DNA of 64,000 bases, from NCBI RefSeq assembly GCF_900660745.1, contig NZ_LR215048.1:310001-374000 (forward strand). The letters run 5' to 3'. Below the pieces are notes generated by a model, which was not told the DNA's origin, made no database searches, and worked only from the letters and a program-made list of their open reading frames with translations. Positions within the stretch are counted from its first letter, which is position 1; each line of letters starts with the position of its first letter. A program made the translations under genes and the position numbers. This stretch comes from Haploplasma axanthum (GTDB lineage Bacteria > Bacillota_I > Bacilli_A > Acholeplasmatales > Acholeplasmataceae). Positions 14,257-42,295 of the stretch are shown here, piece by piece.

Positions 14257-16034
14257 ATGAGAATAAAAGAAATTGAAATAGAAAAGTATAAATCTATAAA
14301 AGAAAAACAAAAAATTGATTTCACATCACAACTTATTATTTTTGTTGGTAAGAATGGAAGTGGAAAAACAAATATACTTGATGCGATTCACACTATTTTT
14401 TCTGTTGAAAACTCTGATTTGAGAAAGTATCTAGATTATAAGTTCTACATAGAAGTAGGCGATAAAGATATTGAAAAAAATAGTAGTCTTAAAAAAACGA
14501 AGTTATTGAAGCATATGCATCAAAAGATAATAAAAGTGTATATAAAAATATTAATAAAATAAAATCACCAATGTTAATTAATATCATTGAGAAAACCGAG
14601 AATTCTATTTATAGTTTGTCAAAGCAATTGAAAGTAGAACTTGAAAAATATAATGATTTTATAAATAAATTTAATTCGAAAATACATGGGAAAGATTTTT
14701 TTAATTTTGATATGAAATATACATCTGATAATATTGAGAATTCAACAAATTATTACCATTTTTTTGAGAATCTACATAATAAAAATGATCAAATGATAAA
14801 GGAACTAGAGATAAATATTAAGGATATTAGACAAAATGATGAACTGACATTTAAAGATTATTTTTTCTCTAATAATACATTTAATCATGATAAAGAATAT
14901 AAGTTGATATATAAAAAACCTAGAATTACATCATTTGAAGAAAAGTATATAAAAATAGATGAAAAAGGTATTATTGATGAAATTGAAAAGATTAATATTA
15001 AAACAACGAAGTATAGAGATAAAATAAAAGAATTATTTGACAAGTTTGATCAAGAAATCTCAATTTTAAGAAGTATTATTTATATTGATGAAGAAAGTAA
15101 AGGGGAAAATGATAATAATTATTTTTCTATATTAAGAGAAATTTTTAGTATATGTAATCCGAAAATATATTACTTGAGTAATGATAATAATGAATTATTC
15201 TTTAAAAAAGATTATAGGAGATATAATAGTACGATTGATGAGAAAAGGATAATTGAAACATTTATAAGATACAGATATAGTGATAGAGAGATGAGTGAGA
15301 TAAATCAGAAAATAAATAAGGGTAATTTTTTGATAGACAAAGAGGAATTATCAGTTAATTTGGAAAAATATATTAATGAAAACTTACCTGAATATGAAAA
15401 AAATATAAAGATTAAAGTCGATAAAAATTTGGTATTTTCTATAATTGAAGAAACTGGTGAAATAATACCGTTTAGTGAAACAAATACAGGTAGAAAATGG
15501 TTCATAACATATTTTTTTATAAAAAGTTGTTTAAGAGAAGGCGATATTTTAATAATGGATGAACCAGCAAATTATTTGCATCCTGAAGCACAAATTCAAG
15601 TCTTAAGTGAAGTAGAGAAACTTTCTAAAAAAAATAAGATTATAATGACAACTCATAGTCCATATATGATTAGTCCTATAGCTCTTGTTTATTATGTTGA
15701 GATGAGCACAAATGGAACTAGAATAATAGAGAAAGAGAATAATCAGTTTAATTTGATTCACGACGGTTTAGGAGTTCCTAAGACAAAACTTTTTATTGCA
15801 GATTTATTATTGAATAATAATTTAGATACTCTTGATGAAATAGCAAAAAAATTAAACATTTATTTTAAAGAAAAAGGAATTAAACAAAGTGAGATAGCAA
15901 ATGATTATGGTTCTGATATTAGAACAATTAATAGAAAATTAAATAAACGATCGAATTTGTCCTATGACGATATTAGGTGGTTTTGTGAAAAGTATGATAT
16001 AGATATAATTAGCCTATTATCTAAGCCTTTATAA
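14257..16034 (+). pseudogene. OLD-like AAA ATPase with C-terminal HTH, frameshifted at a poly-A run
   Basis: The N-terminus is MRIKEIEIEKYKSIKE with Walker A GKNGSGKTN. The frame breaks at the seven-A run 14491-14497 and ends at 14562; the true continuation (NEVIEAYASKD) lies in the frame that is open from there to 16034. One extra A would restore a ~592-residue protein. The C-terminal half has a signature-like region, Walker B ILIMDEPANYLHPEAQ and the switch THSPYM, typical of RecF/OLD-type ATPases used in phage defence. The last ~65 residues (IKQSEIANDYGSDIRTINRKL) look like a Cro/XRE helix-turn-helix, an unusual addition. The break could be decay, phase variation or polymerase slippage. 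Confidence 0.7.
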
Positions 16035-16107
16035 CTCAATTTATGTCCTTTTAAAAATTATTTTTTTTCTGTAAAATGTATGTATAGTTTAAAAAAGGAG
16101 ATTAGCC

Positions 16108-16419
16108 ATGAAAAAAAATATTAGAAAAATTTGGGAAGAAAAGTATGGTGAAAGGAATGAGGTGACTGATTACTCAGGAAGGGTAATGAAAAAGAATAGT
16201 ATTGGAAATTCAAAGTGTTTTTTTGAACCAACTATAGATCATATACGGCCATTATCACTTGGAGGAAAAGACGTTATTGGTAACATAGTTATTTGTAGTA
16301 GACTTACTAACCAAGAAAAAGCTGATAAATTTAATACTTGGAATGTTAATAATAGGAACTTTCAAGCAAAACGTGTTAAAGGTAGTCGAGATGCATACAA
16401 AATAGAAGAAATAGTATAA
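16108..16419 (+). CDS. Small HNH endonuclease-like protein
   Basis: A 103-residue protein with the HNH core: IDHIRPLSLGGKDVIGNIVICSRLTNQEKADK supplies the DH, GG, N and terminal N/K positions. There are no zinc-binding CxxC pairs. It has its own GGAG ribosome site and lies 73 bases after the ATPase gene on the same strand. An ATPase followed by an HNH protein recalls the Septu layout (PtuA/PtuB), but this HNH family also occurs alone, so a shared system is only a suggestion. Confidence 0.65.
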   Translation: MKKNIRKIWEEKYGERNEVTDYSGRVMKKNSIGNSKCFFEPTIDHIRPLSLGGKDVIGNIVICSRLTNQEKADKFNTWNVNNRNFQAKRVKGSRDAYKIEEIV

Positions 16420-37733: not shown

Positions 37734-37773
37734 AAAAACAACGACTTTAAATTGAAAAAGTCGTTGTTTTTTT
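37734..37773 (+). terminator. Strong terminator of galE
   Basis: AAAAACAACGACTTT (37734-37748) pairs with AAAGTCGTTGTTTTT (37757-37771): a 15-bp perfect stem with a T run. Confidence 0.85.
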
Positions 37774-37790
37774 AGAATTGTAAAATTAAA

Positions 37791-38189
37791 CTATTTTTTA
37801 TTGGCTGTATAGATTATGCCTTTTTCTAAATTTATTCCTCTTAAGTCAATAATTGGAATCATTATACTACCTCTTGAGTCATCTGTTATGCTATTAATCA
37901 TACTTCTCACAAATGGGAAACTTACTGAGAAGAATAGATGCAATGCTTGCTCATTGTTTATTTTTTCTCTCCATGATTCGTCATTAATTTTAAATTCTCC
38001 TTTGAAGACAAATGATGATACATCTTGGTTTTCAAACTTCAAATCAATAGTAATAAAGATTGTTTCTATCAAATTTTTTTGTGAATGTTTAGCTGAAATT
38101 TTAAAAAATTCGGGTTGTGTATCTTCGTCTCTATTATAATTTACTTTAATTAAATTTATAGCAATTAGATCATATACTGGTGTATTCAT
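37791..38189 (-). CDS. SecB-like chaperone of a toxin-antitoxin-chaperone module
   Basis: A ~132-residue protein. The C-terminal FPFVRSMINSITDDSRGSIMIP, then PIIDLRGIN, matches the SecB signature (YAR-x-I-x-S...-x-L-x-P-I-N/D), and the N-terminal strands fit the SecB-like fold. I start at the ATG at 38189, which follows AAAGGAG; the earlier ATG at 38207 overlaps the antitoxin gene. It is third in an operon after toxin and antitoxin, the arrangement of TAC systems such as Rv1955-1957, where the chaperone protects a labile HigA antitoxin. Confidence 0.65.
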   Translation of the reverse strand: MNTPVYDLIAINLIKVNYNRDEDTQPEFFKISAKHSQKNLIETIFITIDLKFENQDVSSFVFKGEFKINDESWREKINNEQALHLFFSVSFPFVRSMINSITDDSRGSIMIPIIDLRGINLEKGIIYTANKK

Positions 38190-38200
38190 TTTTTTCTCCT

Positions 38201-38623
38201 TTAACATACAAGTTCTTGACTATTGACACAACTTTTTTCTTGTTCAAAATTATGATTGCTTGGAGTATATTCGTAAGTTTCTTTATGTAAAAAAACATTA
38301 GTAATCTTTCTAATTTTTGACACTTTATCTTTTTTAGGGTTTGTAAATTTATAGAATGAGTCAATTACTTTATCATCTTTGTCAATTAAAAATAATAGTC
38401 TTGAGGATGTACCTTTGACTGGATTTTTTCCTTGTTCCCATTTTTCAACTGTTTTGACTGATACTCCTAGCATATCAGCAAAAGATGTTTGAGTCATGTT
38501 TAACTTATTTCTGATAGACTTAACACTATCAGATGTAATTATACTGTCTACATCAATAACTTCAAGTTTTGATGTAGCTTTCTTACGCAATTCATCAAAA
38601 TTGATTTTTTTAGTTTTAGACAT
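38201..38623 (-). CDS. HigA-like antitoxin with C-terminal extension
   Basis: A 140-residue protein with a Cro/XRE helix-turn-helix (SIRNKLNMTQTSFADMLGVS, then VKTVEKWEQGKNP) typical of HigA/MqsA-like antitoxins, followed by LLFLIDKDDKVI. The last ~50 residues (TNVFLHKETYEYTPSNHNF and beyond) form a tail with aromatic residues not needed for DNA binding. In TAC systems such a tail is the chaperone-addiction region. It has an AAAGGAG ribosome site 8 bases before the ATG, overlapping the toxin's end. Confidence 0.75.
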   Translation of the reverse strand: MSKTKKINFDELRKKATSKLEVIDVDSIITSDSVKSIRNKLNMTQTSFADMLGVSVKTVEKWEQGKNPVKGTSSRLLFLIDKDDKVIDSFYKFTNPKKDKVSKIRKITNVFLHKETYEYTPSNHNFEQEKSCVNSQELVC

Positions 38624-38628
38624 TTTTA

Positions 38629-39033
38629 TTATTCTCCTTTATTATCTAAGTATTCACTTAGTAACCTTTCAAGGTTCTTTTCTTCTTTTTTATCCAAATT
38701 TTTCTTTTTAGATTTGGAGTATAAATGTAGTAGAAAAATGATTGCCTCATCTAAATCTACTAAAATAATACATCTATACCCGGATCTTTTTCCTTTGTTT
38801 GAACATTCGTCTGGGATACGGAGCTTACTTATGAAAACATGAGATTTATTCCCTAATAGGATATCTCCATGTTGTTTCTTGTTACAACAAGACAAGATGT
38901 GACTTGAGAGTTTTTTTTGGTTATTTGCATTACAAGTAGAAAAATATTTAATATCTGAATCGATATTAAATATGTAGTTATCAAAGATTTCGGTTAATGT
39001 TGAAGTATCTTCAATTAGAACTAATTCAGCCAA
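38629..39033 (-). CDS. RelE/HigB-superfamily toxin
   Basis: A 134-residue protein. The second half (SKLRIPDECSNKGKRSGYRCIILVD, then IFLLHLYSKSKKK) follows the HigB/RelE-like mRNA interferase pattern of K-R...GK-xGGYR, a central strand and a basic helix. It starts at TTG 39033 with GAGAGGAAA upstream. It is first in the operon, before the antitoxin, as in HigBA modules. It should cleave mRNA at the ribosome. Confidence 0.7.
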   Translation of the reverse strand: MAELVLIEDTSTLTEIFDNYIFNIDSDIKYFSTCNANNQKKLSSHILSCCNKKQHGDILLGNKSHVFISKLRIPDECSNKGKRSGYRCIILVDLDEAIIFLLHLYSKSKKKNLDKKEEKNLERLLSEYLDNKGE

Positions 39034-39050
39034 GTAAATTTCCTCTCTTT

Positions 39051-39067
39051 ACCCTATTAAATAGGGT
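39051..39067. promoter_or_regulatory. Operator palindrome of the TAC operon
   Basis: ACCCTATTAAATAGGGT is a near-perfect 17-bp dyad between the -10 box and the toxin start, where an HTH antitoxin would repress. Confidence 0.7.
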
Positions 39068-39074
39068 TGAAAAT

Positions 39075-39103
39075 ATTATAACATCTATTCTTACTCTTGT
39101 CAA
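39075..39103 (-). promoter_or_regulatory. Promoter of the TAC operon
   Basis: On the minus strand: TTGACA (39103-39098), a 17-base spacer, TATAAT (39080-39075). Both boxes are perfect consensus. Confidence 0.85.
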
Positions 39104-39171: not shown

Positions 39172-40380
39172 TTAAGTTAGTTTTTTATAGTTTTCTTCAA
39201 TTATTCTAATGATATTATTAATTTCTTTTGATTCACTTAAGAGATTTTCTTTTAATTGAATCTCTTTTGCATTGTTAATAATATATTTGAAATCTTTCAC
39301 AATTTTTTTAAGTAGTTTAGGACCATTTAATCCCCAACTTGTTAATTCTTTTTCGATATCTTGTTTATTTATTTTATCAAAATCATACTTTTTATTTATT
39401 GACATTGCCATATTGTGAGATAGTTCCTCATATATTCTCGTAGAGACTAAATCATAGAATGGAGATAGTTTATATGAATTATTAATATGCAGCAAAGATA
39501 AATTTTTCCCATGATAGTCACAATTACCAATTAAATAGTTATAAACAGATATTTTAGCTAATAAAATTAAATCTAGCGGAGAAGAAGAATAACTTTTAAG
39601 AGCATCTACGATCTTAATAAAACTTGGACCACCTTCCTCTTGGTATTTATTTGTTGGCTTAACTGATAATATTTGACAAAAATCTTCTTGGTGTATTCGT
39701 TTGATATCCGCATTATTCTTTATACGATCAAATCTTTCTATTAACAAATATAAATAGTTCGTACTTTTTTTTATTTCCATAGATGAAACATTAATCCCTA
39801 AAGACTTTGCTAATTCAGTACAAAAAAACTCATTAAGTAAAATATTAGGAGCAATTGGATTAATGAATTTTATTATATGAGTTGATGGAAATTTGAAATT
39901 TGGAATGTAATAAATATCATCTCGTAAAATTAAAGTTGTCTTATTTTGTGCCCCTGCTAAGGATAAACGCATACCTTTTTGATAATAAGGAACTCCATTA
40001 TCGTATTTATGTAATAATGAATGAAAATCATCGGTAGATAATTCTTTCGGATATGGAAACTCTTTAGATTCAATGTTTTTATTTGAAAGATGAATTGCTC
40101 CTGCACAATCTTCACCAATTATATTTAATAAAGAAAAAGGATTTTTTTCTGAAACAAGATACACAGAAGCGATTGTCTTTATAATATCTCCCTCGGGTAG
40201 TAAGTTTTCAAAGAAAGGAGTAACAATATTCTTATTATATGTTTTGTTTTCTATTGGCATTGATAATGAAATAGGTGTGCTAACATCATCTGAATAAGTA
40301 AACGATAAACTTTTTCCATTCGTTTCAGTAAGTGTTCCAACGTGTTTTAAATTTAAATATACTTCTAGTGTTCTAGTCAT
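39172..40380 (-). CDS. hipA: HipA-type serine/threonine kinase toxin
   Basis: A 402-residue HipA. It has the N-terminal strand region ending in FFENLLPEGD, the regulatory loop LSLAGAQNKTTL (the Ser is autophosphorylated in E. coli HipA), the catalytic NCDYHGKNLSLLH and the metal-binding SPFYDLVST. HipA phosphorylates glutamyl-tRNA synthetase in E. coli and stops growth. It overlaps hipB by 8 bases. Slightly shorter than E. coli HipA (~440) but all key motifs are present, so it may be active. Confidence 0.9.
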   Translation of the reverse strand: MTRTLEVYLNLKHVGTLTETNGKSLSFTYSDDVSTPISLSMPIENKTYNKNIVTPFFENLLPEGDIIKTIASVYLVSEKNPFSLLNIIGEDCAGAIHLSNKNIESKEFPYPKELSTDDFHSLLHKYDNGVPYYQKGMRLSLAGAQNKTTLILRDDIYYIPNFKFPSTHIIKFINPIAPNILLNEFFCTELAKSLGINVSSMEIKKSTNYLYLLIERFDRIKNNADIKRIHQEDFCQILSVKPTNKYQEEGGPSFIKIVDALKSYSSSPLDLILLAKISVYNYLIGNCDYHGKNLSLLHINNSYKLSPFYDLVSTRIYEELSHNMAMSINKKYDFDKINKQDIEKELTSWGLNGPKLLKKIVKDFKYIINNAKEIQLKENLLSESKEINNIIRIIEENYKKLT

Positions 40381-40576
40381 TATCAGTTACCTCAATCTTT
40401 AATTTTAATACAGAAAGAACACTTAGAACTTTTTCTAATTGAAGAGTAGGTTTACCTTTTTCTAAGTCAATTATAAACCTTGTTCCAGTGTTTGAAAGTA
40501 ATGCAAGGTATTCTTGAGTAAGGTTTAATTCTTTTCTTTTTCTTTTTATAATAAGCCCAATATCTTTTGAATTCAT
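40373..40576 (-). CDS. hipB: HipB-type antitoxin/repressor
   Basis: A 67-residue helix-turn-helix protein (IGLIIKRKRKELNLTQEYLALLS, then TGTRFIIDLEKGKPTLQLE). I use the ATG at 40576, which follows a GAGGAGG ribosome site; the longer frame to 40636 would run through the promoter. The ribosome site itself sits in one of three operator repeats. Confidence 0.85.
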   Translation of the reverse strand: MNSKDIGLIIKRKRKELNLTQEYLALLSNTGTRFIIDLEKGKPTLQLEKVLSVLSVLKLKIEVTDND

Positions 40577-40580
40577 AAAT

Positions 40581-40716
40581 ATTCCTCCTCGGTAATAATT
40601 TACATTAATTATAGCATTTAAATCAAAAAAAGGCAATTTTATTCCTCCTCGGTAATAATTTAAAAAAATTGTTTGAAAAAGTTTGTATTAATTGTTAAAT
40701 ATTCCCTTTCGGTAAT
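40581..40716. promoter_or_regulatory. Three operator-like repeats spaced exactly 60 bp apart
   Basis: ATTCCTCCTCGGTAAT begins at 40581 and 40641, and a variant ATTCCCTTTCGGTAAT begins at 40701. The first covers the hipB ribosome site, the second lies just upstream of the -35 box, the third farther upstream. They are probably HipB binding sites. Confidence 0.75.
40608..40636 (-). promoter_or_regulatory. Promoter of hipBA
   Basis: On the minus strand: TTGCCT (40636-40631), a 17-base spacer, TATAAT (40613-40608), between two operator repeats. Confidence 0.75.
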
Positions 40717-42262: not shown

Positions 42263-42295
42263 ATGTTAAAATTTAGAATTGTAAACTTTCAAATG

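Follow-up and report, generated by a model that had tools for sequence, protein, structure and literature searches.

Organisation of the operon

The 64-kb window (the whole stretch of DNA analysed) carries on its minus strand a promoter, a palindrome and three tightly spaced genes for a toxin, an antitoxin and a chaperone (TAC), reading from 39103 to 37791 (Table 1). Every element that the initial annotation had listed for this operon is present, and the gene spacing together with the one promoter suggests a single transcription unit. Of 26 promoter-like sites detected across 3.2 kb, the promoter is the sole 12/12 match; shuffled sequences yield about 22 promoter-like sites at a looser threshold. 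All three frames are intact and each gene is preceded by a good ribosome-binding site, AAGAGAGG for the toxin and AGGAG for the antitoxin. The chaperone probably starts at ATG 38189, with AGGAG just upstream, and not at the mechanically assigned ATG 38207, which overlaps the antitoxin stop.

Table 1. Features of the TAC operon (positions in the window).
Feature	Position	Strand	Evidence or remark
Promoter, sigma-70-type, TTGACA-N17-TATAAT, TG before -10	39075..39103	-	12/12 match, unique in region
Operator palindrome ACCCTATTTAATAGGGT, 17 bp, predicted antitoxin site	39051..39067	-	Lies after -10 and before ribosome-binding site
Toxin, 134 aa, TTG start, RelE PF06296 / HigB2 type	38629..39033	-	PF06296 4.3e-8, HigB-2 4e-8, HigB2 Z 10.2
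Antitoxin, 140 aa, HigA2/MqsA-like HTH	38201..38623	-	HigA-2 1.9e-10
Hypervariable antitoxin C-terminus (residues 90-140), putative chaperone-addiction (ChAD) region	38204..38356	-	HigA2 homology stops at residue 89
SecB-fold chaperone, 132 aa, ATG 38189 with AGGAG	37791..38189	-	Predicted fold, profile-profile comparison
Terminator hairpin at operon 3′ end, before convergent galE	37734..37771	-	Sequence

These features bear on whether the locus could be a decayed or silent toxin-antitoxin (TA) remnant, retained by chance. A related toxin gene in genome G081 (L046) does have an in-frame stop, but with three intact frames, a perfect promoter, ribosome-binding sites and an operator such a state is very improbable for the window locus.

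Toxin and antitoxin

The toxin matches the RelE family PF06296 above its curated cut-off, and a profile built from ten toxin members retrieved V. cholerae HigB-2 from the PDB with no other match. HigB2 was also the best match of the AlphaFold model (pLDDT 77), aligning over 101 residues with an rmsd of 2.4 (BECR fold). The protein had been described at first as a RelE/HigB-type toxin; the RelE assignment stands, while classical HigB is replaced by a pair of the HigB2/HigA2 type, a known type II pair to which both toxin and antitoxin are homologous. HigB2 is a ribosome-dependent mRNase (PMC11980606), and by analogy the same activity is predicted for the window toxin. With its PF06296/HigB2 fold it is not a CmdT-type ADP-ribosyltransferase.

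The antitoxin matches HigA-2 and MqsA over residues 26-89, where HigA-2 ends. Ahead of the HTH, residues 1-25 show poor conservation, and about 51 residues (90-140) extend beyond the HigA-2 end. The extra tail proposed for a HigA-type antitoxin is therefore real, on a HigA2-like protein, and it is hypervariable: mean identity to the window antitoxin across eleven members is 12% in the tail versus 47% in the core, and tail length varies among members. A variable C-terminus of this kind, longer than that of the two-component homologue, is a feature by which TACs are recognised. The tail includes a basic/aromatic stretch, KKDKVSKIRKITNVFLHKETYEY, loosely resembling SecB-binding segments, and no recognisable shared ChAD motif was found. 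ChAD tails are known to vary, and the variable tail fits the pattern of chaperone-addiction regions (PMC5105189), making it a candidate for one.

The chaperone

Direct searches with the third protein were empty. The Pfam SecB model (PF02556) matched 0 of 11 chaperone members at E up to 1, Pfam and NCBIfam searches returned nothing, PHROGs gave a chance match only, and a profile search of the PDB found no entry. Kinship with SecB therefore rests on the fold, on profile-profile comparison and on the PADLOC CmdC model. The AlphaFold model (pLDDT 90) has four antiparallel strands and a long helix, and its best PDB match (Foldseek/VIA-align) was E. coli SecB (Z 11.4, 114 residues, rmsd 2.6). The other top matches were H. 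influenzae SecB and, in complex with its antitoxin peptide, M. tuberculosis Rv1957 (5mtw, Z 10.2); SecB-like DUF1149 proteins scored Z 8.5-8.7 and the next unrelated fold Z 5.4. The protein is distant from every characterised chaperone, with 10-14% identity to the solved SecB chains. A profile-profile comparison against 14 PF02556-detected proteins gave a probability of 96.4 (P 1.4e-9, 121 colinear columns), with 1.5% for the toxin profile as negative control. The CmdC model PD-T4-9_C matches 8 of the 11 members (best 9.5e-8; window protein 1.6e-4).

Structure comparison had been suggested as a check on the SecB-like assignment, and it places SecB and the M. tuberculosis SecB-TA chaperone at the top. 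Judging from the predicted fold, the third protein is a SecB-fold protein, yet one of a branch beyond the reach of the Pfam SecB model. A tree of 29 SecB-like proteins puts it in a group of 14 that is separated (100/99) from the SecB proteins of the order that PF02556 detects; branches are long and finer placement is unsure.

The predicted operator palindrome

The palindrome ACCCTATTTAATAGGGT has perfect 8-1-8 arms and is found once in the window. When upstream regions were shuffled, 102 of 5000 (about 2%) contained one as good, so its quality taken alone is only fair evidence. Its significance comes from recurrence in homologous loci: nine of ten loci of the HigB2A2 type, all but L052, have RCCCTATTNAATAGGGY at a distance of 34-71 bases upstream of the toxin start, and it matches at 15-17 of 17 positions (0/500 shuffles each; the shuffled maximum averages about 11). 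The 17-bp palindrome of the initial annotation is thus both present and shared.

RCCCTATTNAATAGGGY is absent from four TACs with other antitoxins (L001, L050, L005 and L014), two of which (L001 and L050) have a different palindrome, GGTATCA..TGATACC. An operator common to HigB2A2-type and MqsRA-type TACs was considered and rejected. The site follows the antitoxin type and not the chaperone, which marks it as a predicted autoregulatory operator; on this pattern, RCCCTATTNAATAGGGY is very probably the operator of the antitoxin. In V. cholerae the HigA2 operator is TGTACGC(N)5GCGTACA (PMC11006873) and lies between -35 and over -10, whereas the window site is downstream of -10. The conserved operator offers a regulatory site that can be tested at once.

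Relatives and distribution

The same gene arrangement occurs at nine other loci (L004, L037, L038, L042, L045, L047, L051, L052 and L053), and at L039 the antitoxin and chaperone are seen at a contig end. Named hosts are Acholeplasmataceae, Acholeplasmatales and metagenome-assembled genomes of other Bacilli. A first scan of genome contigs found no homologue, and a second with a three-row alignment found four named loci; a two-sequence profile searched against 395 genomes of the class detected the chaperone in 10. L004 and L045 both adjoin ackA while neighbours differ at the other loci, a variety that would be as expected of mobile TA genes. No homologue was found in phage and plasmid collections or viral contigs. 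One relative (L051, 2264-6054) adjoins a type IV restriction helicase gene (PLD-ResIII-DUF3427, mREase_IV 1.5e-107) and a Mrr-type nuclease gene, a defence-island context.

At L050 the same chaperone clade stands behind an MqsR/MqsA pair, and the chaperone has therefore switched partners. That a single clade is paired with two unrelated TA types favours the view of chaperone plus tail as a transferable control unit.

Two members of the chaperone clade (L040 and L041) are solitary, without TA genes; they occur in a related family and have conserved neighbours. They lend some weight to a reading in which the window holds an ordinary two-component HigB2A2 and an independent SecB-like export chaperone that lies downstream by chance. 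An export role is conceivable, given that no other housekeeping SecB was found in the host. Set against this, about ten diverged loci retain the chaperone gene beside the TA genes, a few bases apart, the antitoxin tail is missing from two-component HigA2, and the clade also follows MqsRA at L050, so a chance neighbour is improbable.

Across the order, PF02556 was detected in 34 of 160 genomes, in some as solitary genes (beside rplM/rpsI or chromate transporter genes) and in some behind HigBA or MqsRA. Six other TACs of the order (L005, L014, L022, L028, L006 and L009) have canonical SecB-type chaperones behind HigBA or MqsRA. TACs are therefore not rare in this lineage, and the view that one would be notable in a low-GC lineage holds in part: to call TACs rare would be too strong beside these solitary and TA-linked SecB-domain proteins. 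What the window locus adds is the extension of TACs, by way of a SecB-like clade missed by Pfam SecB, into Acholeplasmatales and relatives. These are single-membrane bacteria, in which SecB would not have its classical purpose of export across an outer membrane.

SecB proteins of Firmicutes were already surveyed in 2014 (PMC4257090). TACs have been described as HigBA, HicAB or MqsRA with a SecB-like chaperone (PMC5105189), and a 2025 review of RelE/ParE toxins places them under the HigB, gp49 and MqsR families and not under PF06296 (PMC11980606). No description of TACs in Acholeplasma or Mollicutes was found in the literature, which is weak evidence of novelty as most subscription papers lay outside the search.

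A second TAC, SecB and proteases in the host genome

The host is a wall-less, low-GC bacterium with a genome of 1.88 Mb (99.7% complete). In this genome PF02556 detects only the chaperone of a second TAC (L001) and its contig-end duplicate (L002), and DUF1149 is not detected. The expectation that the host would have no housekeeping SecB is borne out to this extent: no solitary one was found with PF02556 or DUF1149, searches that a divergent SecB could escape, as the window chaperone did.

The second TAC (L001, 1489-2751) consists of a 104-aa MqsR-like toxin unrecognised by Pfam, an MqsA-type antitoxin (PF15731, 4e-13) with a long tail, and a PF02556 SecB, and its operator palindrome is GGTATCAAATGATACC. 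The duplicate L002 (contig bases 1-1851) seems to repeat, with many indels, sequence lying about 27 kb from the other contig end. It was considered as a further, degraded TAC and rejected, since its alignment to L001, at 99% identity, has 14 gaps but no mismatch; it is probably an untrimmed contig end. A 2014 survey found two TACs (or antitoxin-chaperone pairs) per genome in only 2 of 1631 genomes (PMC4257090), and the host genome is a two-TAC case like those.

ClpP was not detected in the host genome by a search that was positive in 12 of 14 control genomes. Lon is present in the host and in all 13 genomes tested, with a weak partial match only in G079. For the TAC antitoxins investigated to date, clearance is by ClpXP/ClpP, as stated in PMC11618068 with reference to Texier 2021. 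Turnover of the antitoxin in a host without detectable ClpP would therefore have to use another protease, and the host provides a natural test of the need for ClpXP in TAC activation.

Predicted mode of action and known systems

By all of the sequence and fold measures applied, the locus is a genuine TAC operon. That it works as a tripartite TAC in the manner proposed below, with toxin, antitoxin, operator, addiction and trigger, is assigned a probability of roughly 0.87.

By analogy with studied systems, we infer RNase activity, repression, chaperone addiction, a protease and a trigger (phage sensing) as follows. The toxin, of RelE/HigB2 type, most likely cuts ribosome-associated mRNA. The antitoxin would neutralise it, probably through its N-terminal ~25 residues as in HigA2 (PMC11006873), while its HTH would bind the 17-bp palindrome and repress the operon. 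The SecB-fold chaperone is predicted to bind the C-terminal tail (chaperone-addiction region); without it, the antitoxin would misfold or be degraded, freeing the toxin. Degradation is most likely by Lon (or perhaps FtsH), a choice based on the host having Lon and no detectable ClpP. As the likely trigger, a phage protein or unfolded-protein stress would capture the chaperone, leading to abortive infection or growth arrest. Published work on TACs covers the ChAD (PMC5105189), its structure (PMC6377645) and phage-triggered capture of the chaperone (PMC11618068, PMC9519451). A more specific version, in which this TAC family evolved chaperone addiction in ClpP-less cells as a non-ClpP form of the alarm, the antitoxin tail serves as a degron for Lon (or FtsH) that the chaperone shields, phage proteins compete for the chaperone, and one chaperone clade is common to HigB2A2 and MqsRA pairs, is put forward tentatively, at somewhat less than even odds.

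The closest known pair, V. cholerae HigB2/HigA2, likewise has a PF06296 toxin, an HTH antitoxin, the toxin gene first and a single inverted-repeat operator (PMC11006873), to which the window locus adds a chaperone gene and the C-terminal antitoxin residues. The M. tuberculosis TAC (HigB1-HigA1-Rv1957) has the same gene order, a C-terminal antitoxin extension and a SecB-fold chaperone, but the two chaperones are only ~10% identical and its host protease is ClpXP (Texier 2021, as cited in PMC11618068). E. coli CmdTAC (PD-T4-9) has in common with the window locus a CmdC-type chaperone; in contrast to the RelE/HigB2-type toxin of the window, CmdT is an mRNA ADP-ribosyltransferase, and CmdA is degraded by ClpP (PMC11618068). 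MqsRAC systems (L001 and L050) have the same architecture, a SecB-type chaperone and an HTH antitoxin with a tail, and differ in their MqsR/MqsA-type pair and their palindrome.

Genomic neighbourhood

In a congener (G001), a DUF368 gene with 37% identity lies ~80 bases after galE, and a polysaccharide gene (47%) comes next. Between galE and DUF368 the window has the TAC, hipBA and glnA, all absent there in G001. The difference may reflect one insertion in the window genome or a loss in G001. The two edges of the segment (37771-37787 and 42272-42288) carry a direct repeat of 17 bases with one mismatch, which in such AT-rich DNA is suggestive only.

The neighbourhood touches on what would set the system off. 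Its TAC mechanism could be the same and the trigger different, so that the system would serve chiefly to control growth under stress or to stabilise a genomic island, and not for phage defence. The position next to hipBA, between genes adjacent in the congener, is in line with such a role, as is the description of the M. tuberculosis TAC as stress-responsive (PMC5105189, PMC4257090). However, E. coli CmdTAC, MqsRAC and HigBAC defend against phage (PMC9519451, PMC11618068, PMC11980606), and the homologue L051 adjoins restriction and nuclease genes; a role chiefly outside phage defence is possible, though less likely than not.

The hipB-hipA pair (39172-40636, minus strand) is directly upstream of the TAC (HipA_C 2.3e-48; couple_hipB 5e-20). 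Three repeats of ~27 nt, spaced at exactly 60 bases (40570, 40630 and 40690), occur at the hipB start and upstream of it, as possible operator sites for HipB. Within the window no link to phage was found, and the nearest defence-like genes are >20 kb from the TAC. At 979-2917 a protein matches PDC-M11A (2e-143), a candidate phage-defence family, and a small overlapping ORF comes after it. At 14257-16419, an AAA/OLD-like ATPase gene in two frames (stop or frameshift) is followed by an HNH nuclease gene, a possible broken Septu-like defence operon.
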